A stretch of 64,000 nucleotides of DNA from a virus (IMGVR_UViG_3300008117_000025:118847-182846); one strand, 5' to 3'. Counted from the stretch's first letter, positions 3,228-39,488 are shown. Notes: a model not told the origin generated them from the letters alone. A program made the numbers and translations.

Positions 3228-4847
3228 TTAGAGGGTATTTAAACCAGCAACATATACTTTACCATAGTAGTCAGGACGGATCATCTTCTTAGCGTAACGA
3301 GTCATCAAACCTTTTCTAGGAGTGAAGGTTGTTGGATCGTAAAGAAGTGGAGTCATGATCAATGGAACGTATGGAGCGAATACAGCACCGCACTCAAGGA
3401 ACTGAGCACCTTTGTAACCCATGAGGATTACGTTCTCAGTCATGTATGGGTTCTTGTATACTTTGTAGCGGCTGTTCAAAGAACCAACTTTCTGAATACC
3501 GAAGTTGAATTCCATTTTCTCGCCGTCACCATCAGAAGCAAATCCAGGAATAGATTCAAGGATAGTAGCTACAGAAGGAGAAGTAATAAGGAAATTAGCA
3601 CCACCACGTAAAGTTAACTGATGGATTGTGTTGGAAACTTTCTGTAATTTAGTACCTAAAGTTTGGAACCAACCGCCTTGAGTGTTGTAGTAGCCAAGAT
3701 CAGTAGCAGCACCAGTAGAATCTAAAGACTTGTTATTAACAGCAGTCCAACGATCAACAGTATAAGCATTCTGGATTAACATGTCAAGGATTTCGAGGTC
3801 GATTTCCATAGAGATGTACTGAGAAAGGATACCAGTTAATTCAGCTTCAGCATCAATGCTATGATAAGCATTCAAATCCTGAGCGAATTCTGGAGTCCAT
3901 TGTGCTTTTAACTTACGAGTTTTAGCAACGATAGCTTCAGATTTCAACTGAACGTCAATAGAAGGGATGTCGATAGTAGCAGGAGCATTTGTAGCACCAA
4001 CTTTGGTTTTTCCGTCTTCAAAATCACCACGGCTGTCAGGAGTGTTTTGGATGTCATAATACAATGTTACGCCACCAACTAAAACACCAGCAGCAATGTT
4101 GGTAACTTTAGAAGTAGGAACAATAAAGGAAGCGGTAGTGTTAGCAGCATTGATAGTAGTGAAAGCCTGTAATACATCAGTAACACCAAGGGTAGAACCA
4201 GAAGCGATTACGAAAGCACGAACACCATTTACATCAATGTTTGAAGGAAGAGCAACGTTAACTTTGTAGTAGCTAGTCACAGAAGCTGAGTAGTTAGAAT
4301 CAAAGTTAAAGTCAGACCAACCGATAGAGCTAGTAACAGCAGCTACACCAGAAGCGGTGTATTGGTTAATAGAGTAACCAAAGCGACCAGCACCATACAA
4401 AGAAGCGGTGTTAGCGAAATCAGTTACATTGTTAGTTGGAGCAGCGCTATAGAGAGAATCACCAACACGAAAAGGTTTAATACCGTTAGCATATTTGAAA
4501 TCAAGATAGAATACAAGACCAGAAGGTAAGTTCATTGGTTGTACACTAACGAATTCTTTAGCTGCGATTTCACCAAATACGCGGCGAACTAAAGGCAAAG
4601 CAACACCAGCCCAGTTCTCACTGTTGTATCCACCACCAGACATGCTGTTAGTTCCACCAGTTACGTTAGCTTCGGTTACTAATTGTTTTGCTTGGTTTTC
4701 AAGCAACATTGCCATTGTGTTTTTGTCAGTAGTAGAGCTAATACCTTCTAAAAGGCCAGATTTAGCCCACTTGCTTGACAACTTTTTTGCATCATCCATC
4801 ACCACTTTATATTGGTTAGATGATTCGAGGAGTTGTTGTACGTTCAT
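3228..4847 (-). CDS. Major capsid protein, T4 gp23-like
   Basis: A 539-residue T4 gp23-type capsid protein (HK97 fold). The propeptide ends at QLVTEANVTGG (E59/A60), closely paralleling the T4 gp23 cleavage site FLTE/AEIGG. The core contains the family block around KLKAQWTPEFAQDLNAYHS and DAEAELTGILSQ. The C-terminus, with PRKGLMTRYAKKMI and GKVYVAGL, also matches gp23. It is the last gene before a strong double-hairpin terminator and sits directly downstream of the scaffold gene. The leader is A-rich with no Shine-Dalgarno sequence. Confidence 0.95.
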   Translation of the reverse strand: MNVQQLLESSNQYKVVMDDAKKLSSKWAKSGLLEGISSTTDKNTMAMLLENQAKQLVTEANVTGGTNSMSGGGYNSENWAGVALPLVRRVFGEIAAKEFVSVQPMNLPSGLVFYLDFKYANGIKPFRVGDSLYSAAPTNNVTDFANTASLYGAGRFGYSINQYTASGVAAVTSSIGWSDFNFDSNYSASVTSYYKVNVALPSNIDVNGVRAFVIASGSTLGVTDVLQAFTTINAANTTASFIVPTSKVTNIAAGVLVGGVTLYYDIQNTPDSRGDFEDGKTKVGATNAPATIDIPSIDVQLKSEAIVAKTRKLKAQWTPEFAQDLNAYHSIDAEAELTGILSQYISMEIDLEILDMLIQNAYTVDRWTAVNNKSLDSTGAATDLGYYNTQGGWFQTLGTKLQKVSNTIHQLTLRGGANFLITSPSVATILESIPGFASDGDGEKMEFNFGIQKVGSLNSRYKVYKNPYMTENVILMGYKGAQFLECGAVFAPYVPLIMTPLLYDPTTFTPRKGLMTRYAKKMIRPDYYGKVYVAGLNTL

Positions 4848-4878: not shown

Positions 4879-5997
4879 TTAAAATTTATTAATACCTGCT
4901 AACATTTGCCATCTAGCAACAGTATCGTTTACTTCAACGATTTGTTTTTTAGGGGCTACACCAGCAGCTTTAGAAGCAAATCCTAATGATTCTTTGATTG
5001 TGCTTTTCTTAGATTTTGCAATAGCACCATTCATTGATTCAAAAATAGCTTTAGCTTCTTTTGTAGTAGTTGCTTTATCGAATTGAGCAATTACTTTGAG
5101 TTTTTGTGATTCGTTCAAATTCTTAGCTTTGAAGATTTTGTTAACGTAAAGTAACTTAGCATTGAGTAAGTTAGTTTCGTTTAATTCGTTACGAAGAGCA
5201 TTGATAGTTTCAATTGCTTCTTTCATTTCTTTTTCATCTTCTTTTTTCTTCTTGTCGTCTTTTTTCTTAGCTTCGTACATATCATCTTTATCGTCGTCAG
5301 CTTCGTCTAAGGCATCAAGTTCAGCTAATAATTCTTCTAAATCGAAATCTTCTTCGATTTCTTCATCACCAGCTTCAGCGTCAACGTTTACAGCCACTTC
5401 ATCTTCACCACCCATGTTACCCATGTCAGCGCTCATATCACCCATTTCTGGGGCTTCGCCACTACCCATTTCGGCAGAGATAATGTCTTTGATAATGTCT
5501 TTCAATTCGTCAACTGTTAAGTCGGTAATTTTGTCGGCTTCTTCAGCTTCTTCTTCTTCGGATTCCTCTTCTTCAGATTCTTCCTCTTCAGATTCTTCTT
5601 CTTCGCCTTCTTCAGCTTCATCAAGATCTTCTTTATCTTCTTTTTTACCTTCTTCAAGTTCATCTTCTTTACTTAATTCAGCTAAAATTTCAGATAAATC
5701 GAAATCTTCTTCAAGCTCATCGTCGCCTTCTTCTAATGAGGCGTGTAATTTTCTAGCATTAACGCGTTGAATGTCATCGGTAGCATAGTTGTCTGTTCCG
5801 AGTTCCATTTCATCAAGCTCTTCCTTGTCTTTAGCTTCGTCTAAATCTTCATCCATTTCTTGTAACTTTGCAGCTAACATGGATTGAAGTTTTGGAGCAA
5901 GAGCTTCTTCAAGGGCAGCTTTAGCGTTTGCTAAGGCAGCTTCGCGAACGGCTTTAGCGTCGGCGATAGCCTCTTTGAATAAGTCTTTGTTTGACAT
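4879..5997 (-). CDS. Prohead scaffold/core protein, T4 gp22-like
   Basis: The likely start is the ATG at 5997 (MSNKDLFKEA), because an AAGGAG ribosome site lies 9 bases upstream; the frame is open to 6081 but that extension lacks a site. The 372-residue protein is helical and extremely acidic, with a Glu/Ser tract at about residues 119-154. Near the C-terminus is the gp22-type block NLLNAKLLYVNKIFK. It ends RWQMLAGINKF, a motif that recurs at the termini of other core proteins here. Many L/I-x-E sites suit destruction by the prohead protease during maturation. It lies immediately upstream of the capsid gene. Confidence 0.9.
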   Translation of the reverse strand: MSNKDLFKEAIADAKAVREAALANAKAALEEALAPKLQSMLAAKLQEMDEDLDEAKDKEELDEMELGTDNYATDDIQRVNARKLHASLEEGDDELEEDFDLSEILAELSKEDELEEGKKEDKEDLDEAEEGEEEESEEEESEEEESEEEEAEEADKITDLTVDELKDIIKDIISAEMGSGEAPEMGDMSADMGNMGGEDEVAVNVDAEAGDEEIEEDFDLEELLAELDALDEADDDKDDMYEAKKKDDKKKKEDEKEMKEAIETINALRNELNETNLLNAKLLYVNKIFKAKNLNESQKLKVIAQFDKATTTKEAKAIFESMNGAIAKSKKSTIKESLGFASKAAGVAPKKQIVEVNDTVARWQMLAGINKF

Positions 5998-6088
5998 AAA
6001 ATTGTTCTCCTTAAATTTAATTGAGGAAATAAGATTATTAGGAAATCTTAATAGGGGGTTTGTAATATACCCAGGTTGCATAAAGAAT

Positions 6089-6110
6089 GGGCAACCTATT
6101 TAGGATGCCC
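6089..6110 (-). repeat. 5' leader hairpin of scaffold message
   Basis: GGGCATCC-TAAATA-GGTTGCCC directly behind the promoter box; stem with one T-T mismatch. It would form the first bases of the transcript, or act as a terminator for the gene upstream. Confidence 0.55.
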
Positions 6111-6120
6111 ATAAATATAT
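6111..6120 (-). promoter_or_regulatory. Promoter box for scaffold/capsid operon
   Basis: Coding strand ATATATTTAT, immediately followed by a hairpin at 6089-6110 and about 113 bases before the scaffold ATG. Confidence 0.55.
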
Positions 6121-6147
6121 GTAGATATGTAAAAACGCAAACTGTTT

Positions 6148-6753
6148 TTAAACAGCTGCTATCTTTTGTGCTAGTGCTATTACCTCAGATGTTTTAAAAG
6201 CGGATAAACCACCTTCTAAGCCTTTAACTATGGCAGTATGTGCATCTACTGCTCCCATTCCACTTGATATAGCAGCAGCTGCTAATATAGCAGCATATAC
6301 ACCATGAGCAGCATCATATAATTGTGATGATTTATCTTGTACTTCTTGTCCTTTAAATTTTTTAGGAAAAGATTTTTGTAAAATAACACCGATGGCATCT
6401 ACGTATGCTTCTTCTAATTGATGACCCCAATGTTTAAGAGCATTACCTACTGCTGTTCCTTGTTTTTTATCTTTTTGAAAAATAGAAGCAATACCATTTA
6501 CAGCTTTACCAGCTAAATTTATTAATCCAGGAGCACCAGCAATTAGGCCTAAAGCTAAACCAGCGGCTTCATCAATTTCACCATCATTTGGAGATAATTG
6601 AACTGAGTTTGCTCCTGATTTAAGCATATTTAGTGCTAATTTTAGTCCTTGTTCAGCATCTTTATCAGCTACAGGATCAACTTGTTCGGCTTCAGTAATA
6701 ATACCGGCTAATTGTTGCCAACGTTTTGCTTCTTGTATTAACATAGTGGACAT
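6148..6753 (-). CDS. Putative prohead core / internal head protein
   Basis: A 201-residue protein beginning MSTMLIQEAKRWQQLAGI followed by ITEAE, a tag-like N-terminus with an I-T-E site. The remainder contains two hydrophobic, Gly/Ala-rich stretches (about 65-90 and 150-185) that could be membrane-active helices. It overlaps the protease gene by 16 bases and precedes the scaffold gene, the T4 neighbourhood of core proteins gp67/gp68. The family is not recognised; packaging into the head is inferred from the tag and the position. Confidence 0.75.
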   Translation of the reverse strand: MSTMLIQEAKRWQQLAGIITEAEQVDPVADKDAEQGLKLALNMLKSGANSVQLSPNDGEIDEAAGLALGLIAGAPGLINLAGKAVNGIASIFQKDKKQGTAVGNALKHWGHQLEEAYVDAIGVILQKSFPKKFKGQEVQDKSSQLYDAAHGVYAAILAAAAISSGMGAVDAHTAIVKGLEGGLSAFKTSEVIALAQKIAAV

Positions 6754-7355
6754 ACTCCTGTTGCGTTACAAATAATTTCAGTTATTAAGCTATTTACTTT
6801 GCTATAATCTTTTATAGAACCAAATTTCTTTGACTCAGCTAATTGCATATATGCTTGTGGAGTTGAAGGTACTGATACTAGATCCCAACACAATAGTTCG
6901 AAATCATCTTGTACTTCAACTGTTTCGCCTAATTGCTTAACAGAGCCCATACCACGAGATGAAATACCAAGTGGAATACCAGACATTACTAATGCTTTAG
7001 CGATATTGCCTGAAGGTGTAGGTAATAATTGTAATTTACCCATTAAATCATTTCCTTTCCACCATACCTCAGTAATAACGTGGGAAGTATTTGCAAGGTT
7101 TACAACAGATGCTTCAGGATGATCGAGTTCTCCTAAGGCAGTACGTGTTTTTACTGGTCCATCTGTGTATTTTTTTACTTCTCTTTCAAGAATTTCGCGA
7201 GGATATACACGACCATTGCCATTCTTTTGCTCAGCTTCTTGTAATTTACCAACAAGGGTAACAAGGTTTTTACCTTCACCTAATTGTTTATTTTCAACAA
7301 TGGTTAGGTTTGCTGTTTGGAATGGAGTGTGATCTATTAATAATGATTTATTCAT
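6738..7355 (-). CDS. Prohead protease, T4 gp21-like
   Basis: A 205-residue serine protease of the T4 gp21 type. Visible family motifs are NGNGRVYPREIL (about 45-56), GELDHPE with the probable catalytic His79, and GISSRGMGS with the probable catalytic Ser132/133. T4 gp21 cleaves core, capsid and internal proteins after L/I-x-E, the site pattern found in many proteins of this window. Its own C-terminus contains LITE, a possible self-processing site. The gene lies between core proteins and the scaffold, as in T4. Confidence 0.92.
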   Translation of the reverse strand: MNKSLLIDHTPFQTANLTIVENKQLGEGKNLVTLVGKLQEAEQKNGNGRVYPREILEREVKKYTDGPVKTRTALGELDHPEASVVNLANTSHVITEVWWKGNDLMGKLQLLPTPSGNIAKALVMSGIPLGISSRGMGSVKQLGETVEVQDDFELLCWDLVSVPSTPQAYMQLAESKKFGSIKDYSKVNSLITEIICNATGVCPLC

Positions 7356-7356
7356 A

Positions 7357-9243
7357 TTAGTATTCGTTTTCAGCGTCTAAATTATCTCTACCATCATAAT
7401 ATTCAGCAATTACTTCACGTACAACTTCTTCTAATGATGATTTAAATTTATCAAATGAAGCACCTAAATCTTTTTTATCACCAACAGAGGGTAATTGTCC
7501 CATAGCCTGTTTAACAGCGTGTCTTAATGATTTTTCATTATATACGGGGTGTGATATAACTGTTTTATAGGTATCTTCTAATTCTTCTTCTTCAATTTCA
7601 ACACCAGGAATAATTTTTTTTAATTCTTCTGCTTCTACATTATTCAAAGTACCACTAAACATAAATTCACCACCAGCCTCATTTAACTTTTTTTTTGAAT
7701 CTTTAACTTTAACCATTTGATTAGCTTTATCAACTAATTCAACTGCTTCTTTTTTCTTTCTAGCCTTTTTCTCTTCAGGTGCTTTAACTTTAGGAGCTGA
7801 AGGTGATTCAACGCCAGCTAATTTTAATGCTGTGTAGTAGAATGGATTTTCTCTTAAATGATCCAAAGCAATTTTCTTTGCTTTATCTAAATCATCTGTA
7901 TGTTCCAATTCAACTTTAATACCCATTCTTACTTCTTGTGGATGGAATTGATTGGGATGATCTGCTACTGCTTCTTTTTTCTTTTTAGCTTCATTAATTT
8001 TTCCTTCTGTAGGAGCAGACATTTCATCACCCATATTTCCTGGGTATAAGTCAACACTTTCACCACGATTTCTAACAAACTTATCTAATATATGATCAAT
8101 AAGTCCTTCAGAATTATCAAAGTAATAACTTTTATCTTTTTTAAATTCAGGAGTACGGAAATAAGCATCAATTTCTTCAAAAGATTCGTATGGTATTTCT
8201 TCTCCACTTTCTTTTTCGTATCTTTGGTTTATATAATCGTGTAATCTTTCAAGATCATAAGATGTTTTATCACTAGGATCATCCCATCCATAATAACCTT
8301 CATCCATATTTTTTAAACTTTCACTTGCATCCATACCATAGGCATCAAACATATCAGGATCTTCATAGTCTTCATCTTCAGGATAAAATTGATCATCAAC
8401 GACTTGAATTGATTTAGGATCAACATATATAAATCCTTCTCTATCTATTGAAGAAATAGTAGCAGTATATCTAGTATCATCTTCATCATATAAATCTACT
8501 GTTCCTCCAGGAGCATCAGGTTCACCACTTTGATTATCAACATACAATGTTTTACCATTATACTCATAAGTAGGTTCATCAGTATATTCTTCACTAAGTC
8601 CACCTTCAAAATCTTGGAATTTAGTATATTTGCCTGCTTCTTCTTCTTCACCTCTAGAGATCATGTCTTCGATATCAGCATCTTCATTACCACTGAACAT
8701 TGCTACAATTTGTTTAGCAGCATCTAATGGATTTTCAAATTTATCTTTTAAATTACGTTCAGTAGTATTATCCATATAATCCTTAATATCCTCAAATACT
8801 TCTGCTGAAATATCAGGATATTCGTTTTCAATTACACCCCATATACGTCCTTTGTAAGAAGCAGCATATTTTTCTTCTGGGTCGTAATACTCAGTTAAAT
8901 CACCTTCATGTCCTTCAACATCAACAGCATCTTGTGGGAACATAGATTCTAATTCATCTGGGTCCATGCCTGTATTTTGGGCTAGGAGTTCTAAAGCTTC
9001 AGAATATGAGTATCCTTTAGCAAGAAGATTTTTAAAATCATTTTCAACACCACCTAATTCAGCGTTGCGGTTAAGATCACCTTCAGTTAAAATAGCCTTG
9101 TTTTTAAGGATTTTAACAGCATCTTTAAATGAAGTTACATTAGTAATGTATTGAGGCATCATCATACGAACATTTCTCATAAAGTTCGATTGTGACATTT
9201 TGCCTTCTTTCAAATCGCGATATTGGTTTGCTATACTTTTCAT
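7357..9243 (-). CDS. Large acidic prohead core protein with DUF5661-like domain
   Basis: A 628-residue, very acidic, lysine-rich protein. It begins MKSIANQYRDLKEGKM and contains several candidate protease sites (ILTEGD, LTEYY, INEAKK, LNEAGG) that divide it into blocks. Near residue 440 is VRMGIKVELEHTDDLDKAKK followed by DHLRENPFYY, which I recognise as a DUF5661-like helical module of phage proteins. The gene is directly upstream of the protease gene. A role as prohead core or internal protein, cut during maturation, is inferred. The composition is much like the scaffold's. Confidence 0.75.
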   Translation of the reverse strand: MKSIANQYRDLKEGKMSQSNFMRNVRMMMPQYITNVTSFKDAVKILKNKAILTEGDLNRNAELGGVENDFKNLLAKGYSYSEALELLAQNTGMDPDELESMFPQDAVDVEGHEGDLTEYYDPEEKYAASYKGRIWGVIENEYPDISAEVFEDIKDYMDNTTERNLKDKFENPLDAAKQIVAMFSGNEDADIEDMISRGEEEEAGKYTKFQDFEGGLSEEYTDEPTYEYNGKTLYVDNQSGEPDAPGGTVDLYDEDDTRYTATISSIDREGFIYVDPKSIQVVDDQFYPEDEDYEDPDMFDAYGMDASESLKNMDEGYYGWDDPSDKTSYDLERLHDYINQRYEKESGEEIPYESFEEIDAYFRTPEFKKDKSYYFDNSEGLIDHILDKFVRNRGESVDLYPGNMGDEMSAPTEGKINEAKKKKEAVADHPNQFHPQEVRMGIKVELEHTDDLDKAKKIALDHLRENPFYYTALKLAGVESPSAPKVKAPEEKKARKKKEAVELVDKANQMVKVKDSKKKLNEAGGEFMFSGTLNNVEAEELKKIIPGVEIEEEELEDTYKTVISHPVYNEKSLRHAVKQAMGQLPSVGDKKDLGASFDKFKSSLEEVVREVIAEYYDGRDNLDAENEY

Positions 9244-9245
9244 AG

Positions 9246-9380
9246 TTATCTTCCTTGGCCACGATAGTTTTTTTCGCTTCTATCGTGTTTGTTAAATGAT
9301 TTTTTTGCTTTACCTAATTTACGTTTACCAAAGGTGATCTTACGGGATTCACCCATTTTGGAACCTTTTGCTTTAGCCAT
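9246..9380 (-). CDS. Small basic protein (44 aa)
   Basis: Reading the minus strand from the ATG at 9380 gives MAKAKGSKMGESRKITFGKR and 24 more residues, ending RGQGR. It is strongly basic, with about a third Lys/Arg. It fits snugly between two core-protein genes, with its stop 2 bases before the next ATG. Small Lys/Arg proteins in head operons can bind packaged DNA, but that role is a guess. It is too short for many gene callers. Confidence 0.65.
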   Translation of the reverse strand: MAKAKGSKMGESRKITFGKRKLGKAKKSFNKHDRSEKNYRGQGR

Positions 9381-9429
9381 TATTGGTACAAGTTTTTAAT
9401 TTTGTTATTTATTTTAAATTTAGATAGAT

Positions 9430-9789
9430 TTACATCTGTTCCTGATTGTAATCTTCTTTATAGTATCTAATATTATCAGCAATATCATCAAGTTCTCCTA
9501 CACGTTTATTGAATAAAAGTCTTTTTAGTTTAGGATATGGAGTATCTTCTATTTCATCATCAAAACTTTCAATGGCCTGTAATAGATTGTTATATTCACT
9601 GGATTTTTTGCCGGTTTCAGTCCATTGCATAACATCATCGTAATGTTTTAATAATATATCTCTATTGACAACAATATATTTGACAAATTCTTCTTTATTA
9701 TCATCAATATCAAAACTCATACCTTCATTTATTTTTAAAATACCAGCTAATTGCTGCATTCTTTTTATTTCGTTGATTTGCTGTTTCAT
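9430..9789 (-). CDS. LAGI-tagged putative internal head protein
   Basis: A 119-residue protein beginning INEIKRMQQLAGILKINEG, a tag nearly identical in pattern to that of the gene at 6148-6753, with I-N-E as the likely cut site. The remaining 95 residues are helical and acidic with no known domain. Its start overlaps the preceding stop. If cut, mature protein would start GMSFDID. Function unknown. Confidence 0.7.
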   Translation of the reverse strand: MKQQINEIKRMQQLAGILKINEGMSFDIDDNKEEFVKYIVVNRDILLKHYDDVMQWTETGKKSSEYNNLLQAIESFDDEIEDTPYPKLKRLLFNKRVGELDDIADNIRYYKEDYNQEQM

Positions 9790-10319
9790 TATTGATGCAA
9801 ATTTTTAATTTTGTTATTTAAATGATTTACCATTTCGGAAATTTTACCAATGTTATTTTGGGTAGCTTTCCAATATTTTATTCCTTCTTCACCTTCACTT
9901 AATTCTTGCTTCATGCGAGAAGTATATTCTACAATACGATCAATTTCAGCTAATTTACGTTTTACTTCACGAATTGCTTTATGTAATTGTTCAGATTTGG
10001 TTCTGAATTTTACATCTTTTTTAAACTTAGAATATGTTACTTCGTTAAGTAATTCTTGCTCGATAATTTTTAATAGTGATTCGTTCATAGCAGATTTTTT
10101 ACCTTTCCATAATTCTTTATAATCAAGCACTTTAGAATTTTTAGGCATTCCTGGTGCTAATTTCCATCCTGATCTTTGTGCTTGTTTAGTAGCGGCGTTT
10201 GGGCCTTGCCCTTTTTTAGCAAATGCTAGTGGAGTAGAATATGCTTCTCCACTACCAGTAGTAGACATTTCTTCTAGCTGTTGACGTATTAGGGATTTTA
10301 TGTATTCTTTTAAATTCAT
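9789..10319 (-). CDS. Putative prohead core protein
   Basis: A 176-residue protein in two parts. The first has an amphipathic N-terminal helix (MNLKEYIKSLIRQQLEEM) and a TGSGEAYSTPLAFAKKGQ segment that resembles internal core proteins of marine T4-like phages. The second begins at about residue 78 with MNESLLKIIEQELLNEV, which looks like another tag with an L-N-E site, followed by a coiled coil. The tandem arrangement suggests two packaged modules in one chain. It is coupled by one-base overlaps to both neighbours. Confidence 0.7.
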   Translation of the reverse strand: MNLKEYIKSLIRQQLEEMSTTGSGEAYSTPLAFAKKGQGPNAATKQAQRSGWKLAPGMPKNSKVLDYKELWKGKKSAMNESLLKIIEQELLNEVTYSKFKKDVKFRTKSEQLHKAIREVKRKLAEIDRIVEYTSRMKQELSEGEEGIKYWKATQNNIGKISEMVNHLNNKIKNLHQ

Positions 10320-10654
10320 TATTTTAAAGTAACTTCAAATATTATTCCACTTATAGGGCTTGTTATTTTTTTAGTTTTAGGATCCTCTACGTGACCAAAC
10401 TGATGATTAAAAGCAGAAACAGAACATTCAATCACAAATGTTCCTGCTACTTTACTAAAATCACTAAGTCTAGATATTTTATGTACATTTATACTATAAT
10501 CATTGTTAATTTTAATTGGACCCATTTCTCCAACAAAATTATTCATTATATCACATATTTTACTCTTAGGAAGATTTATTTTATATTTTTTCCCAGACTC
10601 AAAATTAATTGGAGCTCCTTCTTTTATCCCAGCTAATTCTTGTAGTCTATTCAT
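10319..10654 (-). CDS. LAGI-tagged small protein
   Basis: A 111-residue protein starting MNRLQELAGIKEGA, a third copy of the L-A-G-I tag with I-K-E as the candidate cut site. The mature part would be about 100 residues, predicted beta-rich, with lysine-rich strands. I do not recognise a family. It sits in the head operon between core proteins, with no intergenic space. Confidence 0.7.
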   Translation of the reverse strand: MNRLQELAGIKEGAPINFESGKKYKINLPKSKICDIMNNFVGEMGPIKINNDYSINVHKISRLSDFSKVAGTFVIECSVSAFNHQFGHVEDPKTKKITSPISGIIFEVTLK

Positions 10655-10655
10655 T

Positions 10656-11510
10656 TTATTTAGCGCTTTTTAATTCTTCTATTAATTGATAATATTGCAA
10701 AAGAGAAACAATATTTTCATCTTTTACATTTTGTGTTTTGTCTAATGGATGTAATAAGGTAACCACTTCAGCCAATTTAATCTGAGTGGTTTTATCGGCT
10801 ACTGAAGGTATTAATTTTTTAATTTCTTCAGTAATAGTATTGAAATTAGTATTAACAAAATCACGTAATTTAGTTGTATTACTAATATTATTAATAAATT
10901 CTTTCAATATGAGTTTTTGGCGATCTGATAAAGTAGCATATTTGCTGTTGAATTTCTCCAACAACATGCGATAAGCAAGTATACGAGAACCCTTATCCAT
11001 ATTAGCATATTCTTCCATTACACGATCTTTAACACCTTCCTTATTTACTTCTTTACGTGTAATGTGCTCTAATAATGTAATCTTATTATCAATGATTTGC
11101 TGTGGGTCAGTAAATTCAAGTGAATTGTGTACCTCGATTAAATTATATACAGCAGCATACTGTGAGTAGTTATTGATTTTGGCTTTGAAGAATTCTTCAA
11201 TGTCGTATGTTTCACGTATTTCCTTAATCAAATTGTATTTTTCCTTACGTAAAGCCGTTTTGTTTAAACGCAAAGAAGCATCCAACGTTGCGTTGATGAA
11301 TGTTTCAGCTTTAGCTTCACTTAATGATTTAGGAGATACTAAGGTTTGATATAATTTATATTCTTTAGCTAATTCGGATTTGCCAAAATATTTTCTAACC
11401 AATCCAACAGCCGCAGAATCTTTATTAGAAATGGTATCTGAGGCTATTTGGCGAACCAATAGCTCGAATAAGATACCAGTATTCTTGAACTTGCTGTGTT
11501 TAATTTTCAT
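10656..11510 (-). CDS. Conserved phage protein of head operon
   Basis: A 284-residue, mostly helical basic/acidic protein starting MKIKHSKFKNTGILFELLVR. Such an N-terminus is, from memory, widespread next to portal genes in marine T4-like phages. Its function is unknown to me; a capsid-assembly or DNA-packaging accessory role follows only from its position directly after the portal. It has its own promoter box at 11531-11540, about 20 bases before the ATG, and that leader can form a small ATAGT/ACTAT hairpin. Confidence 0.75.
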   Translation of the reverse strand: MKIKHSKFKNTGILFELLVRQIASDTISNKDSAAVGLVRKYFGKSELAKEYKLYQTLVSPKSLSEAKAETFINATLDASLRLNKTALRKEKYNLIKEIRETYDIEEFFKAKINNYSQYAAVYNLIEVHNSLEFTDPQQIIDNKITLLEHITRKEVNKEGVKDRVMEEYANMDKGSRILAYRMLLEKFNSKYATLSDRQKLILKEFINNISNTTKLRDFVNTNFNTITEEIKKLIPSVADKTTQIKLAEVVTLLHPLDKTQNVKDENIVSLLQYYQLIEELKSAK

Positions 11511-11530
11511 AATGAATAGTATGCACTATC

Positions 11531-11540
11531 TATAAATATT
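11531..11540 (-). promoter_or_regulatory. Promoter box for 10656-11510
   Basis: AATATTTATA 20 bases before the ATG. Confidence 0.5.
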
Positions 11541-11543
11541 TAA

Positions 11544-13430
11544 TTATTGTACGCCCTTGATATTTTTTTCATCTAATAGTGATGGTTCTTGTTCAGGTTT
11601 GAACACTAATTCTTTGCGAACTATATTCATACCTTCAAACAAATGCTTATTTCTTTTCAATTCATTTAATGCTAATGGTGAACCACCTTTTGGTGTTCCT
11701 TCACCAGTTTCATTAGGAGTTGATAAAGTATTATTAGCTATCTTACCTGTTCTGTCCTTACCTAATGGATCTTGTTGTGTTCCAACTATAGATGCTCTTT
11801 CTTTAGGACGACCAGGTTTTTTCTCATCATATCCAGCAGGTACAGGACCATTATCGTTCATTCCTGATCTGCCTTTACCATATAATGATGCTAAATCGTG
11901 TGGTGTACCAAATGATCTACCTGTTTTAGCTGGGTCGTTGCCTTCATTTTCAATTTGAGCTAAACGGAATACGCGTTTTTTATCTTCAATCATTAAATCA
12001 CGGTATTCATCAAATTCATCTTCACTAAATTGGAATATTTTATCATAAATCCAATCTGAAGGGAGTAAATTGGTATCCTGGATTGATTTAGCTAGGTCAA
12101 CTTTTTCCTTCCATAATGCTATTTTTTCTTGTTCGTAGATTATAGATGGAACTGTTAAAGATAATTCAAAGTTTGACAATGCTTCACCATCATATCCTTG
12201 AACATATAAATGCACTAATGCAATTTTATACAATTCAGATAATGCAATACGTTGAATACGTTCTACTGTGCGAGCGAAGCGAATATCTTCAGCAGCTAAT
12301 GTAGCTTTACCTTCAAGATCTTTTTCAAATCCAAAGAATGCTTTAGGCACTTTTAACGCAGCTAACATTTCATCACGTAAGAAATTTACGTCTTCAATTG
12401 CATTATATTCAAGACCTTTAATGGTATCAATCTTAGTTGCTGTATCATTACCACGAGTTGGAAGATAAAAGTCTTCCATCATGTTTTGTACATTATATTT
12501 TAAATTATATTCACCAGTTTGTTGATCAACATATGGAGTTTTCTTCATCTTCTGCATTATTTTCTGCATGAATCCGTCAACTTCATGTGGTGGAATATTA
12601 CCAACATTAACAGTGAATACGCGTTTTTCTGGGGCGCGAGTAATACGATGCAACAACATTGCATCTTTCATTAGCACATATTGCTTATATGTTTTACGAG
12701 CAGGCTCAATGTACGATCTACCATAAGGTAAATAGTTAGCATCAGTTAATAATCTAAAGTGAGCTACTTCGTAGTTTTCAAGTATAATTTTACCCTCTTT
12801 ATCTTTAGGACGATCAATCATACTACCACCCATAGCAATAACCATAGGATCGATTCTAAAACGTACTAAAGATGGATTGTGAGGGTCTAATCCTTCCTCA
12901 CGAATCATATCATAAACAGATAATGGTGTTACATTGTATACACCAAATTGATCTGCTATTTCAAGGTGTAAATAGAAATCACCATATTTACACATGTTTC
13001 TAATCCACAACCATAAGTTAAATTCGATGTTTAAAACATCGTAAAATAAATTATAAAGAATACGCTGGATATTATCGTCAGCGCTTCTAATTTGTAATAT
13101 TTCACCTACTTCGTTTTTTAAAGTAGATTCATCAGAAATAATGTCAAGAGTAGATGCAATGATTGATTCTGTATCCATAGCTTCATAGTCAGTATACAAC
13201 TGAATACGAAGTGTTTGGTAATTCATTGTAGGGTTGTATGGCATATTAGCGCCATAGCGGTGTAGCTTAGTAAATCTATCAATAAGAGCGTTGGTCTTTA
13301 CATTACCATATGCTTGAATTTTATCAACATCTATGGTTTTTAATTGATTGCCACCAACATTTCTTATAATAACGTCTGTGCTGAAGAGACGTCTTAATCT
13401 ATCGAATAAGCCTATTTGATTTTCAGCCAT
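11544..13430 (-). CDS. Portal vertex protein, T4 gp20-like
   Basis: A 628-residue portal protein forming the dodecameric DNA entry gate. Family features seen are the N-terminal block with NMPYNPTMNYQTLRIQLY, the IASTLDIISDEST helix, PYGRSYIEPARKTYKQ, and the crown region with LKVPKAFFGFEKDLEGKATL. Length is slightly above T4 gp20 (524 aa) owing to a low-complexity C-terminal tail with a KKPGRPKER motif that resembles a single AT-hook. It lies between terminase and core genes as in T4 and is preceded by a promoter box at 13453-13462. Confidence 0.92.
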   Translation of the reverse strand: MAENQIGLFDRLRRLFSTDVIIRNVGGNQLKTIDVDKIQAYGNVKTNALIDRFTKLHRYGANMPYNPTMNYQTLRIQLYTDYEAMDTESIIASTLDIISDESTLKNEVGEILQIRSADDNIQRILYNLFYDVLNIEFNLWLWIRNMCKYGDFYLHLEIADQFGVYNVTPLSVYDMIREEGLDPHNPSLVRFRIDPMVIAMGGSMIDRPKDKEGKIILENYEVAHFRLLTDANYLPYGRSYIEPARKTYKQYVLMKDAMLLHRITRAPEKRVFTVNVGNIPPHEVDGFMQKIMQKMKKTPYVDQQTGEYNLKYNVQNMMEDFYLPTRGNDTATKIDTIKGLEYNAIEDVNFLRDEMLAALKVPKAFFGFEKDLEGKATLAAEDIRFARTVERIQRIALSELYKIALVHLYVQGYDGEALSNFELSLTVPSIIYEQEKIALWKEKVDLAKSIQDTNLLPSDWIYDKIFQFSEDEFDEYRDLMIEDKKRVFRLAQIENEGNDPAKTGRSFGTPHDLASLYGKGRSGMNDNGPVPAGYDEKKPGRPKERASIVGTQQDPLGKDRTGKIANNTLSTPNETGEGTPKGGSPLALNELKRNKHLFEGMNIVRKELVFKPEQEPSLLDEKNIKGVQ

Positions 13431-13452
13431 GTTTTGTATTTAATAATATACC

Positions 13453-13462
13453 AATAAATATT
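13453..13462 (-). promoter_or_regulatory. Promoter box for portal gene
   Basis: AATATTTATT, 22 bases before the ATG. Confidence 0.5.
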
Positions 13463-13464
13463 TA

Positions 13465-15045
13465 TTAACCAAGTACCCATGAAATATCTTCGAATCCCCC
13501 ACGACCATCATTAATCATGAATGGGTTTTGATATCCACTAGGTACTGTTGGTCCTCCTATATAACCTGTTTTAGTAATACTAGATACCATAGCCCTGTTT
13601 AAATCCATACCCTGCTCATAAAATTTCATTGCAGTATCTCTTGTAAACAAACCTATACCTAAAGACATTACTAAATCATCGTTATAACCGTTTTGTGCTT
13701 GAGCTTTACCATTTTGCCAAATAAACACACGTAATTCTTCTAATAAACGTTTTGATCTAAACACAAAGACCTTCTCTCGAATGTACGACTCCATTTTTGA
13801 AACAACAAGGGGTCTTGTTTTGGATGACATTGTAAAACCAGGAACCGTTTGTTCTTTATCCATTTTATCTAGCCATTTATCTATATGCATTTCACCATAA
13901 GCACGAGGTGAATAATATAATTTTTGATATCCTTTTTCTATAATAGTATTAATAACGTCCCATCCAACATTCGCATTCTCCACCACGAGCAAAGCATTAT
14001 TATACTCAGTAGCAACAGAAACAAGCATGTTTCCAAAAGTACGAGTGTCAATTTGCGATTTATATTCAGCCACTTGCTCACAAGTCGTCGCATCAATGAC
14101 ATGGAAAGCAGAAAAGTCGCTACCATCTCCGCGAGCAACATCAGCACATACAAGATACTGCTTACTATAATCAGGATACTGCCAAATCCAATAGTCGCCA
14201 CCCATAAACCTGCGTTCCACAGGATCTTGTAAATATGTTTCTTCATAAAATGATAATAAATCAGGTTCAACTACTGAATTACCAGAACCTAAAAAGTCAC
14301 ATTCATATTCCTGAGCAAATTCTCTAGGTGACATGTTTGTTCTTTCTCTTTGTTCCCAAGCTTCATCTCTATCTGGATGTAGGCTCCAAGGTAGTTTAAT
14401 TGCTTTAAAGTCGTTTTTACCTATTTCAGCCTCAGCATACATTCTATGAAACCAGTTACCTACACCATTTGGAGAAGATAAAGCAATAATTCCTCCACCT
14501 GTTGCAATTGTAGGTTTAATACTTGTATAAATTCTATCAATACCCTCAATAAACGCAGCCTCATCCACTAATAATAAAGACACGGCGTAGGATCGACCTG
14601 CATCTGATGCTGCTGATGTAGCTACAATTTGAGAGTTATTAGCTAATTTAAGTGATAATTTATTGTCTGAAACTGGTTTTTGATTGCCTTTTAGCCAGCT
14701 AGGTAGGTTATTATACATAAACTGTACCTTTTCAACCATGCCTTTAGCTGTTTCTTGTTTTGTTGCTATACAAAGTACTGTTTTGTCTTTTTGAAATAAC
14801 ATCATCCACAAAGAAAAACCAGCAACTAATGTTGATATACCTAACTGTCTTGATTTATTAATGATACAGAAACGATTATTTCTAAAATCATTTAGTGTTT
14901 GTTCCTGGAATGGGTAAAGGTGAAATAAAATTCTGCCTTTGATTGGGTGTGTAATATAACAGTATTTACGGAAGAAATGTACAGGATCAGTAGCACACTT
15001 AACATATTCCTGTTTAATTATTTCTTTAATATTGGCTTGACTCAT
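13465..15045 (-). CDS. Terminase large subunit, T4 gp17-like
   Basis: The DNA-packaging motor, about 526 residues from the ATG at 15045 (MSQANIKEII). The 20-codon upstream extension to 15105 runs through the promoter and terminator, so I reject it. The ATPase domain shows KSRQLGIST (Walker A variant) and SLLLVDEAAF (Walker B). The RNase H-like nuclease domain begins near CADVARGDGSDFSAF with the first metal-binding Asp. The promoter box ends only 3 bases before the ATG, implying an almost leaderless message. The neighbouring portal gene confirms the assignment. Confidence 0.94.
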   Translation of the reverse strand: MSQANIKEIIKQEYVKCATDPVHFFRKYCYITHPIKGRILFHLYPFQEQTLNDFRNNRFCIINKSRQLGISTLVAGFSLWMMLFQKDKTVLCIATKQETAKGMVEKVQFMYNNLPSWLKGNQKPVSDNKLSLKLANNSQIVATSAASDAGRSYAVSLLLVDEAAFIEGIDRIYTSIKPTIATGGGIIALSSPNGVGNWFHRMYAEAEIGKNDFKAIKLPWSLHPDRDEAWEQRERTNMSPREFAQEYECDFLGSGNSVVEPDLLSFYEETYLQDPVERRFMGGDYWIWQYPDYSKQYLVCADVARGDGSDFSAFHVIDATTCEQVAEYKSQIDTRTFGNMLVSVATEYNNALLVVENANVGWDVINTIIEKGYQKLYYSPRAYGEMHIDKWLDKMDKEQTVPGFTMSSKTRPLVVSKMESYIREKVFVFRSKRLLEELRVFIWQNGKAQAQNGYNDDLVMSLGIGLFTRDTAMKFYEQGMDLNRAMVSSITKTGYIGGPTVPSGYQNPFMINDGRGGFEDISWVLG

Positions 15046-15048
15046 ATA

Positions 15049-15058
15049 TATAAATATA
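15049..15058 (-). promoter_or_regulatory. Promoter box for terminase gene
   Basis: TATATTTATA ends 3 bases before the ATG at 15045, after terminator 15066-15088. Confidence 0.55.
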
Positions 15059-15065
15059 TAAGGGA

Positions 15066-15088
15066 AGCCCAATCTTATCGATTGGGCT
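15066..15088 (-). terminator. Hairpin terminator after 15110-15784
   Basis: AGCCCAAT/ATTGGGCT stem (8 bp) followed by TCCCTTATAT; short T content, so efficiency is uncertain. Confidence 0.7.
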
Positions 15089-15109
15089 CGCGTATGGGCA
15101 TGCAAGAGT

Positions 15110-15784
15110 TTACTTAGCTAACAACGTATAAACTAATCCACCAATAACAACACCAGTTCCTATCTTAACAAATTTATTTTGGATTTTGAGTTTCTTATTT
15201 TGTAATTGAATTTGTTTATATTGGTCTTTCCAATCAGCAATTTGTGTATCTTTGATAGTAATGATACCTTTGTAGTTATTTTCTTTGCCTTTAAATTCAT
15301 CAATAATTTTATCTCTAAGGATAACTTTATCTTCAGTTAAAGCAATAACACTATCTTTAACAACTATAATTTGTTTAGCACCATCTAATTCAACTAAATC
15401 TTTAGCGGCACTAACTAATACTGGTTGTGCTACTGGGAGTGGATTAGTAACTGTATCTTCTGGGTAGCGTTGATTGAATGAGGAGATAAGTTCTGCTTCA
15501 GAATAAGTGTCAATTTTCTTTTTAGATGAATCAACCCATTTAGTAACAGTAATTACTTTTTCTTTTTGATTACTTAATTGATAATCCAATTCTAAGCTTT
15601 GAACATATAATTCATCAATAACAGAATCTCTTTTATCAATATCTACTTCTAAAGAATCAACAACATGAGTTAAACTATCTTGTTTTGCTACAAATTCTTT
15701 TGATAATCCATCAAATTGGCATTTATCAACAAATACCCAAAACAATAAAGCTACAACTGCAAGAGGGAAAACTAATTTTTTCAT
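15110..15784 (-). CDS. Coiled-coil protein with terminal membrane segments, spanin-like
   Basis: A 224-residue protein. An N-terminal hydrophobic segment (about 4-20, VFPLAVVALLFWVFV) is followed by a long heptad-rich coiled coil (about 30-200) and a second hydrophobic segment at the C-terminus (VVIGGLVYTLLA). A rod held in membranes at both ends is the architecture of a unimolecular spanin, which fuses inner and outer membranes at lysis. No proper lipobox is visible at Cys22, so this is a candidate only. A hairpin terminator follows at 15066-15088. Confidence 0.65.
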   Translation of the reverse strand: MKKLVFPLAVVALLFWVFVDKCQFDGLSKEFVAKQDSLTHVVDSLEVDIDKRDSVIDELYVQSLELDYQLSNQKEKVITVTKWVDSSKKKIDTYSEAELISSFNQRYPEDTVTNPLPVAQPVLVSAAKDLVELDGAKQIIVVKDSVIALTEDKVILRDKIIDEFKGKENNYKGIITIKDTQIADWKDQYKQIQLQNKKLKIQNKFVKIGTGVVIGGLVYTLLAK

Positions 15785-15787
15785 ATA

Positions 15788-16741
15788 TTATTTTTTAATA
15801 CCAGCGTAATATTGCATTCTACCTTTCATCCATTCATCTAATGTTTCTTCTTCTTCAGGCTCAGCTGCTGGTTTTTCAATTGGTTTACCTGTAATTTTAG
15901 ATTGGCGTCTTTGTAAATATTCAGAGTTAGCTAATAGATCATTCATTTTCTTTTGTAATCTATCTTTCAATCCACGAAGATTTTCAATTTCAGAAGATGG
16001 TTCATCTGTAATATCACTAATATCTCTTCTAGAACGTTTAGTTTTTAAAATATCGCTTTTAACTTTAGCTAAACGACCTTCAAGATCAGTATATTGCATA
16101 AATGCTTCATAATCGTCATCTGACATTGAAGCAGCAGATATATCAGCAGTTTCAATTTCACCTGCTTCAGGCTCTTCATCACCACTACCCATTGCTTTAG
16201 CAAATGATGCTTCGATTTCTTCATCACTCATATCACCTGCTAAACCACCCTCTGGTCCTTCTTCACCTGCTGGTACTTCTTCACCTGCTGGTTCAGTCGT
16301 AGGACGATTAAGGCGTGGAGCTGCTTGGGTACCTGATGGGATAATAACGCCATCAGCTACAAGTGCCATAAAATCAGCATTAATTGGATTTTGTTTATCA
16401 TATCCTAAAGCACCAGCTACATCCATTTTAGACATTGGTTCTTCAGTAGCTTGCATTGCTGATACAATTCTTGCTTTTTTACCTGCAAAATCAGCAGCAG
16501 CTGCATCCGGAGCTAGTTCATAGCGTACGGCTACGTTTGCTAATTCATCAATAGCATCTTCTGTAATTTCTTCTCTACCTGAAGATATATCACCTTTTTT
16601 AAGTTGCAATGCTTTAATTTTAGCATCAATTGCTTTCATTTCAGCATCTTTTGCTGATTTTTCAGCTGGGGAAATGTCGGCTTCATTTATTACTTCTTGT
16701 ATGGCTTTACGTACAAGTTCTTGTAAATCTTTTCTATTCAT
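15788..16741 (-). CDS. Tagged virion-core-like protein with winged-helix-like region
   Basis: The likely start is the ATG at 16741 (MNRKDLQELVRKAIQEVINE), since the frame's first ATG at 16759 lies inside the promoter box. The N-terminal amphipathic helix ends in I-N-E/A, a candidate prohead protease site. Residues about 60-140 (KMDVAGALGYDKQNP and nearby) resemble a winged helix. A coiled coil follows, and the protein ends WMKGRMQYYAGIKK, an echo of the LAGI motif. Highly acidic linker in the middle. Probably an internal head protein; function unknown. Confidence 0.7.
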   Translation of the reverse strand: MNRKDLQELVRKAIQEVINEADISPAEKSAKDAEMKAIDAKIKALQLKKGDISSGREEITEDAIDELANVAVRYELAPDAAAADFAGKKARIVSAMQATEEPMSKMDVAGALGYDKQNPINADFMALVADGVIIPSGTQAAPRLNRPTTEPAGEEVPAGEEGPEGGLAGDMSDEEIEASFAKAMGSGDEEPEAGEIETADISAASMSDDDYEAFMQYTDLEGRLAKVKSDILKTKRSRRDISDITDEPSSEIENLRGLKDRLQKKMNDLLANSEYLQRRQSKITGKPIEKPAAEPEEEETLDEWMKGRMQYYAGIKK

Positions 16742-20976: not shown

Positions 20977-21507
20977 TTATGCTTCTGCTGGTGGTGGAGT
21001 TTCTTCGGCTGGCGCTTCAGGAGCTGGTTCTTCAGCTGGAGGTGTAGTTTCTGGAGCGCCTGCGGCTGCTGTAAATGCTTCAGCACCAGCATCAGCTTTA
21101 GGTGCTTCACCGCCACCTTCTTCTTTATCACCAACAGCATAATTTAATTCTAATAAATCAGCTATTCCTTGTTGTGCTCTTTCTAATTCACCTAATTGTT
21201 GCATATTATATCTCTTACCAGCTACTTTTGCTGTGTAATTTTTCTTGCCGTCATACACAATTGTGAATTCTTGTTCGTTAATTAATTTGAGGTTGAATGT
21301 AGTTGGTTTTGGAGCAACTAAATTAACTTCAGTAATAAAACGACCAAATGATGGAGACATTAAGTCTTCTACAATCTTTTTTAAACCAGGAAAACGATAT
21401 ATTAAATACATAGATTTAGCAGCACGTTGCTCTCTTGCTTCTTGTTCTGCTAGAGCTTTACGCACTGCCACTTTAATATATTTCTCTAATAATATTTTTT
21501 TACTCAC
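20977..21507 (-). CDS. Tagged internal-protein candidate with Ala/Pro-rich tail
   Basis: A 176-residue protein. The N-terminal amphipathic helix [19 protein letters not shown] fits the tag pattern with L-A-E as cut site. The middle (about 30-120) is basic and beta-rich. The last 50 residues are Ala/Pro/Glu-rich low complexity. It overlaps the next gene by 8 bases. The family is not recognised; packaging is inferred from the tag and the surrounding set. Confidence 0.7.
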
Positions 21508-21872: not shown

Positions 21873-22364
21873 TTATTTATCTTTTTTAGCAGGTGCTTTT
21901 TTAGCTACAGGCTTTTCTTCTTTAGGCTCTTCTTTCTTTTCGTCTTTTTTAGGCTCTTCTTTTTTATCAGCTTTTTTATCGTCTTTTTTACCAACAGCTG
22001 GTTTTTTAGCTTTTTCGATAAGACCCATCATTTCTTTAATCTTTTCAGTTTCAGAAGAAACTTTACCTTCAACTTCAGAAATTTGGTTGTCAAGCATTTC
22101 AGCTAATTTAGCATGAGCAGACTTAATCTTTTCTAATTCGTTTACAAACTTTTGCATATGAGCATATTCAGCTACGAATCCTGGTGCGGATTCGCCACCT
22201 TCAGCAATTTGGTATTGACCTAATGCTTCTCTCATACCTTTAAGGCTTTGTAATTCTTTTTTAAGGTGTACTAATTTACCACCACTTTTTGGTAATCCAC
22301 CTTTTTCTTCCATTGCTTCGGCAATTGCTTGGCGAACAACGCTACGTACTTCTGTGATATTCAT
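21873..22364 (-). CDS. Tagged Lys-rich coiled-coil protein
   Basis: Start at the ATG 22364 ([20 protein letters not shown]), because the earlier in-frame ATG at 22412 lies before the promoter box 22391-22400. About 163 residues: amphipathic tag with I-A-E, coiled coil (about 25-110), then a Lys/Glu/Pro/Ala tail ending KKAPAKKDK that resembles histone-H1-like tails. It could bind DNA in the capsid; this is speculative. Confidence 0.7.
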
Positions 22365-22390
22365 GATTTTGTTTTTGTTGTGTTTATGTG

Positions 22391-22400
22391 TATAAATATT
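22391..22400 (-). promoter_or_regulatory. Promoter box for 21873-22364
   Basis: AATATTTATA, 26 bases before the chosen ATG; excludes the earlier in-frame ATG. Confidence 0.5.
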
Positions 22401-23415
22401 ATAAAGTTTCATCTAGATCGGCTAATCCCGTGTCGTCTTTTCTTAAGTCACGTTCAATGTCACGCATTGTATCCATTGCCCATTTACGTTGTAATGGTTT
22501 TAATTCGCCATTGATTGCGTTTTCAATGAATGGAAAAAATTCATCGTCAATCAATTTATATACTTCAGCAAAAAACAATTCACGAACGCGTGCATCATCT
22601 ATATTCGATTCATTATATAAATCAGATATAGCATCATAAATAAATTTACCATACTGTAAATCACGAGGCTCATTTGAGAGCTTGTCAACAGCCCCAACAA
22701 TGGCTTGATTTTTTTCTTTATCGGCTCCAAAGCCTTCAGTTCCAACGATTTCATATAAACCTTTTACTATTTCATGTACTAACATTGGAAAGCAAATAGC
22801 ACGAGCCTTGATTACAAATTGCTCGTTTTCTTCATCATATTCCATTTCACTTTCACCACCTTGCATTTTTTGACCTTGAGCAAGCATTGCTAACATCATT
22901 GCAATTGCATTCTCATCATCATATATACCAAATGCTAATTTTAATATTTCACTATATTTTTCAACCAATTCTGGACTGATTTGGTCAAGGTACTCTCTAA
23001 AGAGCATAAAGCCAAAAGCACCTCTAATAGAGGCACCTTGTGTAATACCGTTAATAATACGGCGTTTTGCTTTTTCAGCTTCAAGAGGCATATTATCTAA
23101 ACTTTCTTCACCACCTCCCATTCCCATGTTTAGATCTCCCATATCAACTATCTTAGCATCAATTTTGATGTTTGCATAATCAATAATTGGGTAAGCATCA
23201 GTTACCATTTGGGCAGCTACCATTTCAAGTTCATCGCGATATCCTTCTTCTGCTTGAATAATTTCACCTAATAATGCTTGTGAACGCACCATTGTTTGCA
23301 TTAGATTTTTATCACCAAGCATTTGGCGTAATGATTCACCTGATTTACCTTTTAGGGCAGTCATTGTTTTAGGTGAAAATATCTTTTCGTAATCGACTTC
23401 TAATAAGCGGCTCAT
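22399..23415 (-). CDS. Conserved hypothetical phage protein
   Basis: A 338-residue, mostly helical acidic protein starting MSRLLEVDYEKIFSPKTMTA. It contains a Met/Gly-rich loop (DLNMGMGGGEESLDNMP) and a KARAICFPMLVHEIVKGLYE helix. No tag is evident. It sits in the tagged-protein operon and shares one base with the preceding stop. No family recognised; possibly structural. Confidence 0.7.
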   Translation of the reverse strand: MSRLLEVDYEKIFSPKTMTALKGKSGESLRQMLGDKNLMQTMVRSQALLGEIIQAEEGYRDELEMVAAQMVTDAYPIIDYANIKIDAKIVDMGDLNMGMGGGEESLDNMPLEAEKAKRRIINGITQGASIRGAFGFMLFREYLDQISPELVEKYSEILKLAFGIYDDENAIAMMLAMLAQGQKMQGGESEMEYDEENEQFVIKARAICFPMLVHEIVKGLYEIVGTEGFGADKEKNQAIVGAVDKLSNEPRDLQYGKFIYDAISDLYNESNIDDARVRELFFAEVYKLIDDEFFPFIENAINGELKPLQRKWAMDTMRDIERDLRKDDTGLADLDETL

Positions 23416-23660
23416 TATTTTTTAGATTTAAAGCGTGCTACAATTTTTTTAAGCATTTCTTCTTCGTTCATTGCTTTAGGAGCAGGTTTAACTTCAGGAT
23501 TACCTAATGGACGACGTGGTTTTGGTTTACCTGTATCTGGTTTACCTGGTGCTACAGCTGGTCCAGGAGATGGTTTTGGTTTACTAGGTGCCGGAGCATT
23601 TTCGTTTAATACTCTATCAACGATCTCACGGATGATTTCTTTAAGTTTATTTTTGTTCAT
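23415..23660 (-). CDS. Tagged Pro/Lys-rich short protein
   Basis: 81 residues. The first 22 (LKEIIREIVDRVLNEN) form an amphipathic helix with L-N-E as a likely protease site. The rest is Pro/Lys-rich and disordered, with a helical basic end. After cleavage a basic Pro-rich peptide of about 60 residues would remain, of the kind found as internal DNA-associated peptides in phage heads. The role is inferred. Confidence 0.65.
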   Translation of the reverse strand: MNKNKLKEIIREIVDRVLNENAPAPSKPKPSPGPAVAPGKPDTGKPKPRRPLGNPEVKPAPKAMNEEEMLKKIVARFKSKK

Positions 23661-27165: not shown

Positions 27166-27543
27166 TTACCATTTTCTGCAAGACCAATATCTTGCTTTTG
27201 TACGTGGTCCTGGGTTGGCACAGTTATGTCTTGCTCTAAAGGCAGCGCGGCGTTTAGGATTATTTTTCTTAATGTTCATTCCCTTAGCACCAAAGTTTAC
27301 TTTTACAACTTTACCTGTTTTAGGGTTTTTAACATATACCTTAAACTTTTTAGAATCACCACGCATTGGTTTACCTAATGGTACAGTACGACCTTGATAC
27401 TTAGCTTCTAACATGCAATCGCAATCAGCTTCGTTAAGTTCGTTTTGATATTCTTCCATGAATTGAACAAATTCTAAAATGTCTTGTTCATTTTCAACGT
27501 CGTACTCTTCTACTTCGTCTATTATTTCTAATAACTTAATCAT
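27166..27543 (-). CDS. MIKL-tagged conserved basic phage protein
   Basis: 125 residues: tag MIKLLEIIDEVEE, an acidic stretch with LNEAD (second possible cut), then a conserved basic domain with VPLGKPMRGDSKKFKVYV, KVNFGAKGM and FRARHNCANPGPRTKARYW. I recognise this domain as widespread in marine phages; function unknown, the Cys/His/Arg pattern suggests nucleic-acid or metal binding. Cleavage after L-N-E would separate the acidic part from the basic domain. Confidence 0.8.
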   Translation of the reverse strand: MIKLLEIIDEVEEYDVENEQDILEFVQFMEEYQNELNEADCDCMLEAKYQGRTVPLGKPMRGDSKKFKVYVKNPKTGKVVKVNFGAKGMNIKKNNPKRRAAFRARHNCANPGPRTKARYWSCRKW

Positions 27544-39056: not shown

Positions 39057-39488
39057 CTACAACAAGTCTTTAGTAAAGAATTTACCTAGTATATTATCAT
39101 TGTATGATCTGTCCTTTCCAATCAGAACTTCTTCTTTACACTGGAAATGCATTTCGTAATATGTTAATGCTTTTTTAGTTTTGCATTGTATTAGGATCCA
39201 ACGATCAAAATTTTCCTCGCCATATTCCTTAATATCAGTAAGTAATTGTTTATTAGACCCCCAATATTTTTGCCAATCGCTTTCAGTACGAATTATTTCG
39301 TGAGTTGGTTTGCGACCTGGGCCAGTTTGTTCAGCAAGTTGTTTTTTAGTGAGTTTGTGTTTTTTATTATTCCAAAACACTTTTTTACCAATATAAAATT
39401 TACCTGTTTTTAAATTGGTAATTTTATAAACAAAACCATAATATTTTTCGGGATTAGGTATATCCCAACTTTTCCACTTGTGTATCAT
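39057..39488 (-). CDS. GIY-YIG-like phage nuclease
   Basis: 143 residues. The start GFVYKITNLKTGKFYIGKK gives the paired G-[FI]-V-Y / F-Y-I-G strands of the GIY-YIG fold, followed by ESDWQKYWGSN and LTYYEMHFQ, matching phage putative homing endonucleases (Seg-like). The conserved Arg, Glu and Tyr are plausible catalytic residues. It overlaps the next gene by 4 bases, so it is integrated in an operon rather than an obvious free-standing invader. Confidence 0.82.
   Translation of the reverse strand: MIHKWKSWDIPNPEKYYGFVYKITNLKTGKFYIGKKVFWNNKKHKLTKKQLAEQTGPGRKPTHEIIRTESDWQKYWGSNKQLLTDIKEYGEENFDRWILIQCKTKKALTYYEMHFQCKEEVLIGKDRSYNDNILGKFFTKDLL

Follow-up and report, generated by a model that had tools for sequence, protein, structure and literature searches.

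A peptide shared by the scaffold C-terminus and the N-termini of unrelated small proteins as a probable head-loading tag in T4-like phages

We investigated a short peptide, R-x-Q-x-[LY]-A-G-I, which recurs at the ends of proteins encoded in and beside the head-gene cluster of a T4-like phage of ~183 kb. The stretch of DNA analyzed (the window, 64,000 nucleotides) corresponds to bases 118,847-182,846 of the 182,846-bp virus record IMGVR_UViG_3300008117_000025, and coordinates given below are window positions. Gene order on the minus strand matches the T4 head order: a terminase (PF03237), a gp20-type portal protein (11544..13430; PF07230, E 9.6e-64), small genes, a gp21-type prohead protease of the Peptidase_S77 family, which is the presumed cutter (6738..7355; PF03420, E 8.8e-34; phrog_207 head maturation protease, E 5e-54), a gene bearing the peptide at its N-terminus, the scaffold gene and a gp23-type major capsid protein, the candidate docking partner (3228..4847; PF07068, E 1.3e-78). 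Judged by the capsid protein, the closest cultured relative is Flavobacterium phage immuto (61% identity), followed by Microcystis phage Mel-JY01 (50%).

Five genes, also on the minus strand, carry the peptide. An acidic, predicted helical or coiled-coil scaffold protein (4879..5997) occupies the gp22 position, as indicated by synteny with T4 20-67-68-21-22-23 and an alignment of 25 relatives; it lies between the protease and capsid genes, with one tagged gene intervening before it. Translation of the scaffold probably begins at Met29 of the listed open reading frame (ORF; window 5997), the start position in most relatives. It had no match in Pfam and a single weak, unrelated match in PHROG. 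Its C-terminus reads RWQMLAGINKF, in which RWQMLAGI (4891..4914) is the putative docking motif, and seven residues ahead of the motif stands IVE (4933..4941), a candidate site of the [LI]xE type after which T4 gp21 cleaves (PMC9026906). Three putative cargo proteins bear the motif N-terminally: a protein of 201 amino acids with an all-helical body, encoded between the protease and scaffold genes (6148..6753; RWQQLAGI, residues 11-18, 6700..6723), one of 119 amino acids (9430..9789; RMQQLAGI, residues 10-17, 9739..9762) and one of 111 amino acids (10319..10654; RLQELAGI, residues 3-10, 10625..10648). Candidate protease sites accompany all three, namely ITE with the cut before A (6691..6699), INE with the cut before G (9724..9732) and IKE with the cut before G (10619..10627), the last overlapping the tag end; counted from the motif R, they end at +10, +12 and +9, respectively. 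The fifth gene encodes a putative core or cargo protein (15788..16741) with an N-terminal helix element closing in INE and the C-terminus RMQYYAGIKK; its motif RMQYYAGI lies at 15797..15820 and a candidate site, LDE, five residues ahead of that (15833..15841). An earlier reading of this DNA, made from the sequence alone (the sequence-only reading), had named these three N-terminal and two C-terminal motifs, and all five were borne out. The bodies of the 9430 and 10319 proteins are BLAST singletons among tagged proteins, while the 6148 protein matched nothing in Pfam or PHROG and fold searches with its AlphaFold model returned nothing at E 0.001 or better.

A scan of all 247 ORFs of the full 182,846-bp record (57,716 amino acids) for R-x-Q-x-[LY]-A-G-I gave these five copies and no others; each is terminal in its protein, and each gene lies within or next to the head-gene cluster. 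The expectation from 2,000 within-protein shuffles was a mean of 0.002 copies, with a maximum of one. A test of the tag for amphipathic-helix character gave no excess over shuffles.

To survey scaffolds independently of the motif, we scored, in 75 relatives found via the capsid protein, the long ORF immediately preceding the capsid gene. A recognizable form of the motif ended all 75 of these genes, and the pattern [RK]xxx[LIVMF]AG[ILV] was present in 60; the remaining 15 ended in RMQKLANI, RMQKLADI or, in one case, RMRELAFGG. The RMQKLANI subgroup comprised loci L012, L013, L015-L019, L021-L025 and L027. When 25 scaffolds with 32-94% identity to that of the window were aligned, the rows being drawn from motif-positive loci, R390, L394, A395 and G396 were invariant and I381 and E383 of the candidate IVE site were at least 90% conserved. 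Persistence of the motif at these termini in relatives, on which the sequence-only reading depended, was borne out: it is kept at the scaffold C-terminus and recurs N-terminally on many unrelated bodies. Distant phages share the scaffold ending. The gp22 of PA5oct ends in EELRRLAGIK and that of Vibrio phage 2.275 in LDRLTKIAGIRK, and a capsid-adjacent gene of Rhodothermus phage RM378 ends in ERIKRLAGL. When a profile of the scaffolds was compared with eight further gp22 proteins of T4-like phages, the alignment was confined to 16 columns at the C-terminus, with an E-value of 8e-4 but a probability of 24%.

Tagged cargo was collected by pattern scans of IMG/VR together with the capsid-linked loci, which yielded the N-terminal motif on 156 distinct small proteins. 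The bodies of 152 of them fell into 102 BLAST clusters, including 75 singletons, and alignment of 101 cluster representatives gave the consensus MKxxINEIKRMQQLAGIxxE, with no conservation beyond it. The search pattern demanded L, A and G, so their invariance in this alignment is not evidence of conservation. The peptide RMQQLAGI is written by 53 genes in 28 different DNA sequences, indicating that selection acts on the peptide. As a functional class the tag resembles the T4-type capsid targeting sequence (CTS), being N-terminal, short and common to proteins with unrelated bodies. C-terminal tags on proteins other than the scaffold are few: the family of the 15788 protein, in which the ending recurs in ~24 relatives, mostly after [LI]DE or [LI]xE, and single cases in L011, L123, L137 and L188. 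One protein, L147:2252-3325, is a homologue of the 6148 body (66% identity) that carries a different subtype of the tag and, after it, an insertion of well over 100 residues; comparison of the two sequences suggests tag exchange.

Searches of 101 tagged proteins against Pfam and PHROGs gave about a dozen isolated matches each and no functional theme, and a guess that the tagged protein L101:1886-2359 is an ADP-ribosyltransferase was dropped, having found no support in Pfam. The tag is restricted to a clade. Of 50,697 phage records, T4 included, the 25-residue tag matched only those of Flavobacterium phage immuto, and it matched no plasmid. The tagged genes of immuto lie near 25.1 kb and at 111.7 kb. 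A DNA-pattern search of 257 Gb of bacterial genomes gave seven matches, which look like chance. The exact motif strings were not found in the literature searched.

Candidate cut sites stand at characteristic distances from the motif, upstream of it on the scaffold and downstream, often upstream as well, on cargo. One of our scans demanded E at -3 and another ITE at +8 to +10, so that for these positions we drew conservation figures solely from matches gathered without that requirement. Among 142 N-terminal tags picked without regard to the site, 112 had [LI]xE ending exactly at +10 (counted from the motif R) and 136 had it between the motif and +22, against a background of 0.9% per position in protein bodies. 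The 19 capsid-linked N-terminal tags had [LI]xE ending at -3 in 14 cases and at +10 in 14. Distinct C-terminal tags were preceded by [LI]xE within 20 residues in 84 of 89 cases, with the site on scaffolds mostly ending at -7 or -5. An S77 protease gene was present in nine of ten long tag-bearing records, and the tenth, a record of 85 kb, also lacked gp23. The sites adjoining the tag, which the sequence-only reading had not included, suggest from their position that the tag is removed.

AlphaFold models placed these elements in a similar arrangement. For the 6148 protein, the model shows the tag as a helix (residues 3-15), followed by a linker (17-23; predicted local distance difference test (pLDDT) below 50) that holds the ITE site and then by the helical body; confidence within the tag itself was low (about 50-56). 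The scaffold model (overall pLDDT 60) contains long predicted helices and puts the motif in a helix spanning residues 386-394, which is preceded by a disordered stretch (359-383, mostly pLDDT below 50) that includes IVE.

The occurrence of one peptide at the scaffold end and at the starts of unrelated small proteins, usually with predicted cut sites, makes it probably an address tag that directs small proteins into the head and is afterwards cleaved away. More specifically, we consider it quite likely that the peptide is a removable prohead docking tag with R-[MWLF]-x-x-L-A-G-[IL] at its core, by which the scaffold end and the cargo would bind the same partner before being cut by the gp21-type protease. 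Direct support comes from the motif, its terminal placement, its conservation, the modularity of the tagged proteins, the fixed positions of the candidate cut sites, the clade restriction and the S77 protease gene; binding, partner, cleavage, packaging and ejection are steps that we infer. While the head assembles, the last ~10 residues of the scaffold would anchor it to a partner, for which the inner face of the gp23-type shell is the most likely candidate, and unrelated small proteins with the same peptide at their N-terminus (in a few cases their C-terminus) would bind the same sites and so become enclosed as the head forms. The protease would then cut at [LI]xE beside the tag, releasing the scaffold for removal, and the untagged cargo would stay inside the head, probably for ejection into the host. 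A shared docking surface in the prohead had been proposed in the sequence-only reading; one peptide at the scaffold end and at cargo starts, beside predicted protease sites, fits that proposal well, with the capsid protein, core, portal and protease all still candidates for the partner.

Several observations count against a removable docking tag. Scaffolds ending in LANI co-occur with cargo tagged LAGI or LAGL in L012 and L025, so scaffold and cargo copies do not closely track each other there. Two of the three N-terminal tags in the window have their downstream site at +9 or +12 instead of +10. Tagged cargo was sought in PA5oct, the record of which has virion mass-spectrometry notes, and the motif was found at the scaffold end only; lacking tagged cargo, this phage is uninformative on packaging. 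Many cargo genes are distant from the head cluster, which we judged to be neutral.

The same evidence bears on other explanations. It is possible that the partner of the motif is not the shell but a second core protein or a different region of the scaffold, and that cargo thereby joins the core. In T4, gp22 and the internal proteins co-purify, and the CTS of the latter shows affinity for the core (PMC9026906); the long helices predicted in the scaffold may also point to a core-core interface. Such an interface leaves the use of the extreme C-terminus unexplained, however, and in herpesviruses it is the major capsid protein that the C-terminus of the scaffold binds (PMC12474303). Candidate cut sites keep a set spacing from the motif and flank it in many cargo proteins, which could alternatively mean that the motif recruits the gp21-type protease to the nearby [LI]xE, with cargo loading governed otherwise. 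We regard this as unlikely, given that the capsid protein does not carry any of the five copies in the genome and yet gp23 is a gp21 substrate in T4 (PMC9958956), and that a short L/I-x-E motif has been described as sufficient for T4 gp21 (PMC9026906).

A further alternative is that the partner is the gp20-type portal, in which case scaffold and cargo would be located at the portal vertex. The portal gene lies in the same cluster, and titles in the reference list of PMC12474303 mention a portal-interaction region in the scaffold of herpes simplex virus 1 (HSV-1), but the T4 prohead contains ~576 copies of gp22 and 12 portal subunits (PMC9026906), so that few scaffold ends could be portal-bound and a portal tag seems very improbable. 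The motif is short and was noticed in a single window, which would suit an absence of any common function, the 5' segment of a gene having been copied by recent recombination or the resemblance being fortuitous. This we find scarcely credible: chance is rejected by five copies where shuffles predict 0.002, copying at the DNA level by the 28 encodings of RMQQLAGI, and about 100 unrelated bodies share the motif, which every relative examined moreover keeps at the opposite, C-terminal end of its scaffold.

These phages also carry two other N-terminal elements ending in [LI]xE. A helix element, LxxIIREaIxEVLNE (for example, LRKIIREAIxEVLNE), was matched at 24 distinct N-termini and nowhere else in the loci collected. 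In the window it is found in 15788-16741, where it stands at the N-terminus of a protein with an LAGI-type tag at its C-terminus, in 23415-23660 and possibly in 9789-10319, 20977-21507 and 21873-22412; in L153 and L186 a similar element comes after the LAGI tag. The second is a 10-mer like MIKLxDILKE (for example, MIKLLDILKE), which in relatives marks 17 of 1,428 N-termini as against 4 of 7,247 internal methionines, an enrichment that is not clearly seen in the window genome (2 of 248 as against 4 of 772). It occurs in the window at 27166-27543 and 39485-39859 and possibly at 21500, 26292, 26694, 32890 and 54461, and its spacing (hydrophobic residues at 4, 7 and 8; E10) is similar to that of the T4 IPIII targeting sequence. 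Both elements may, from their sequence and position, be parallel targeting signals. A gene of 628 amino acids between the protease and tagged genes (7357-9243) contains a DUF5661 domain (PF18905, E 9e-10).

The closest functional parallel is found in T4, where the internal proteins IPI, IPII and IPIII carry a 10-residue N-terminal CTS, cut by gp21, on otherwise diverse proteins, and where the residues needed for targeting and processing were mapped by suppression genetics (PMC9026906, PMC3012670). Like the CTS, the present tag is a short N-terminal peptide on diverse bodies, closed by [LI]xE, in a phage with a gp21-type protease (PMC9026906, PMC3012670). Unlike it, the tag is ~20-25 residues long with a different sequence built on an R-x-x-x-L-A-G-I core, and its peptide is found at the scaffold end too; the CTS of T4, by contrast, has been reported absent from other core proteins (PMC9958956). 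Our best reading is of a functional likeness to the T4 internal-protein targeting sequence that uses the scaffold's own C-terminal peptide, a variant not found in the literature searched.

That use recalls the herpesvirus scaffold, in which the C-terminus binds the major capsid protein and cleavage at the M-site removes the last 25 residues, releasing the shell (PMC12474303). Both systems have a C-terminal scaffold peptide preceded by a maturational-protease site, a candidate one here, but the sequences are unrelated, no homology is claimed and the portion of the account cited describes no family of tagged cargo. By analogy, the present system looks like both the T4 CTS and the herpesvirus tail at once, the cargo tag being the scaffold's own C-terminal peptide. 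The scaffold shares with the gp22 of T4-like phages its gene position between gp21 and gp23, and with that of PA5oct and Vibrio phage 2.275 the terminal motif; gp22 ends differently in T4 (VSVYAKVASRF), KVP40 (MAAYLKAARTTR), Ac42 (DAYAVAASKIK) and a cyanophage (MAQYLNALNRWS), and overall similarity is too weak for a sequence-based family call. It is doubtful that cargo loading in T4-like phages is in general a mimicry of the scaffold C-terminus, with the resemblance between the internal-protein targeting sequence and the gp22 end having diverged past recognition in T4. The mechanisms by which certain proteins localize in the T4 scaffolding core 'remain mysterious' according to a recent review (PMC9958956). 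Against that background, the match between cargo tag and scaffold C-terminus offers a concrete hypothesis, that cargo borrows the docking site of the scaffold, and the sequence rule predicts that uncultured phages encode >150 proteins that reside inside the head and are possibly injected, of which almost none has a known domain.

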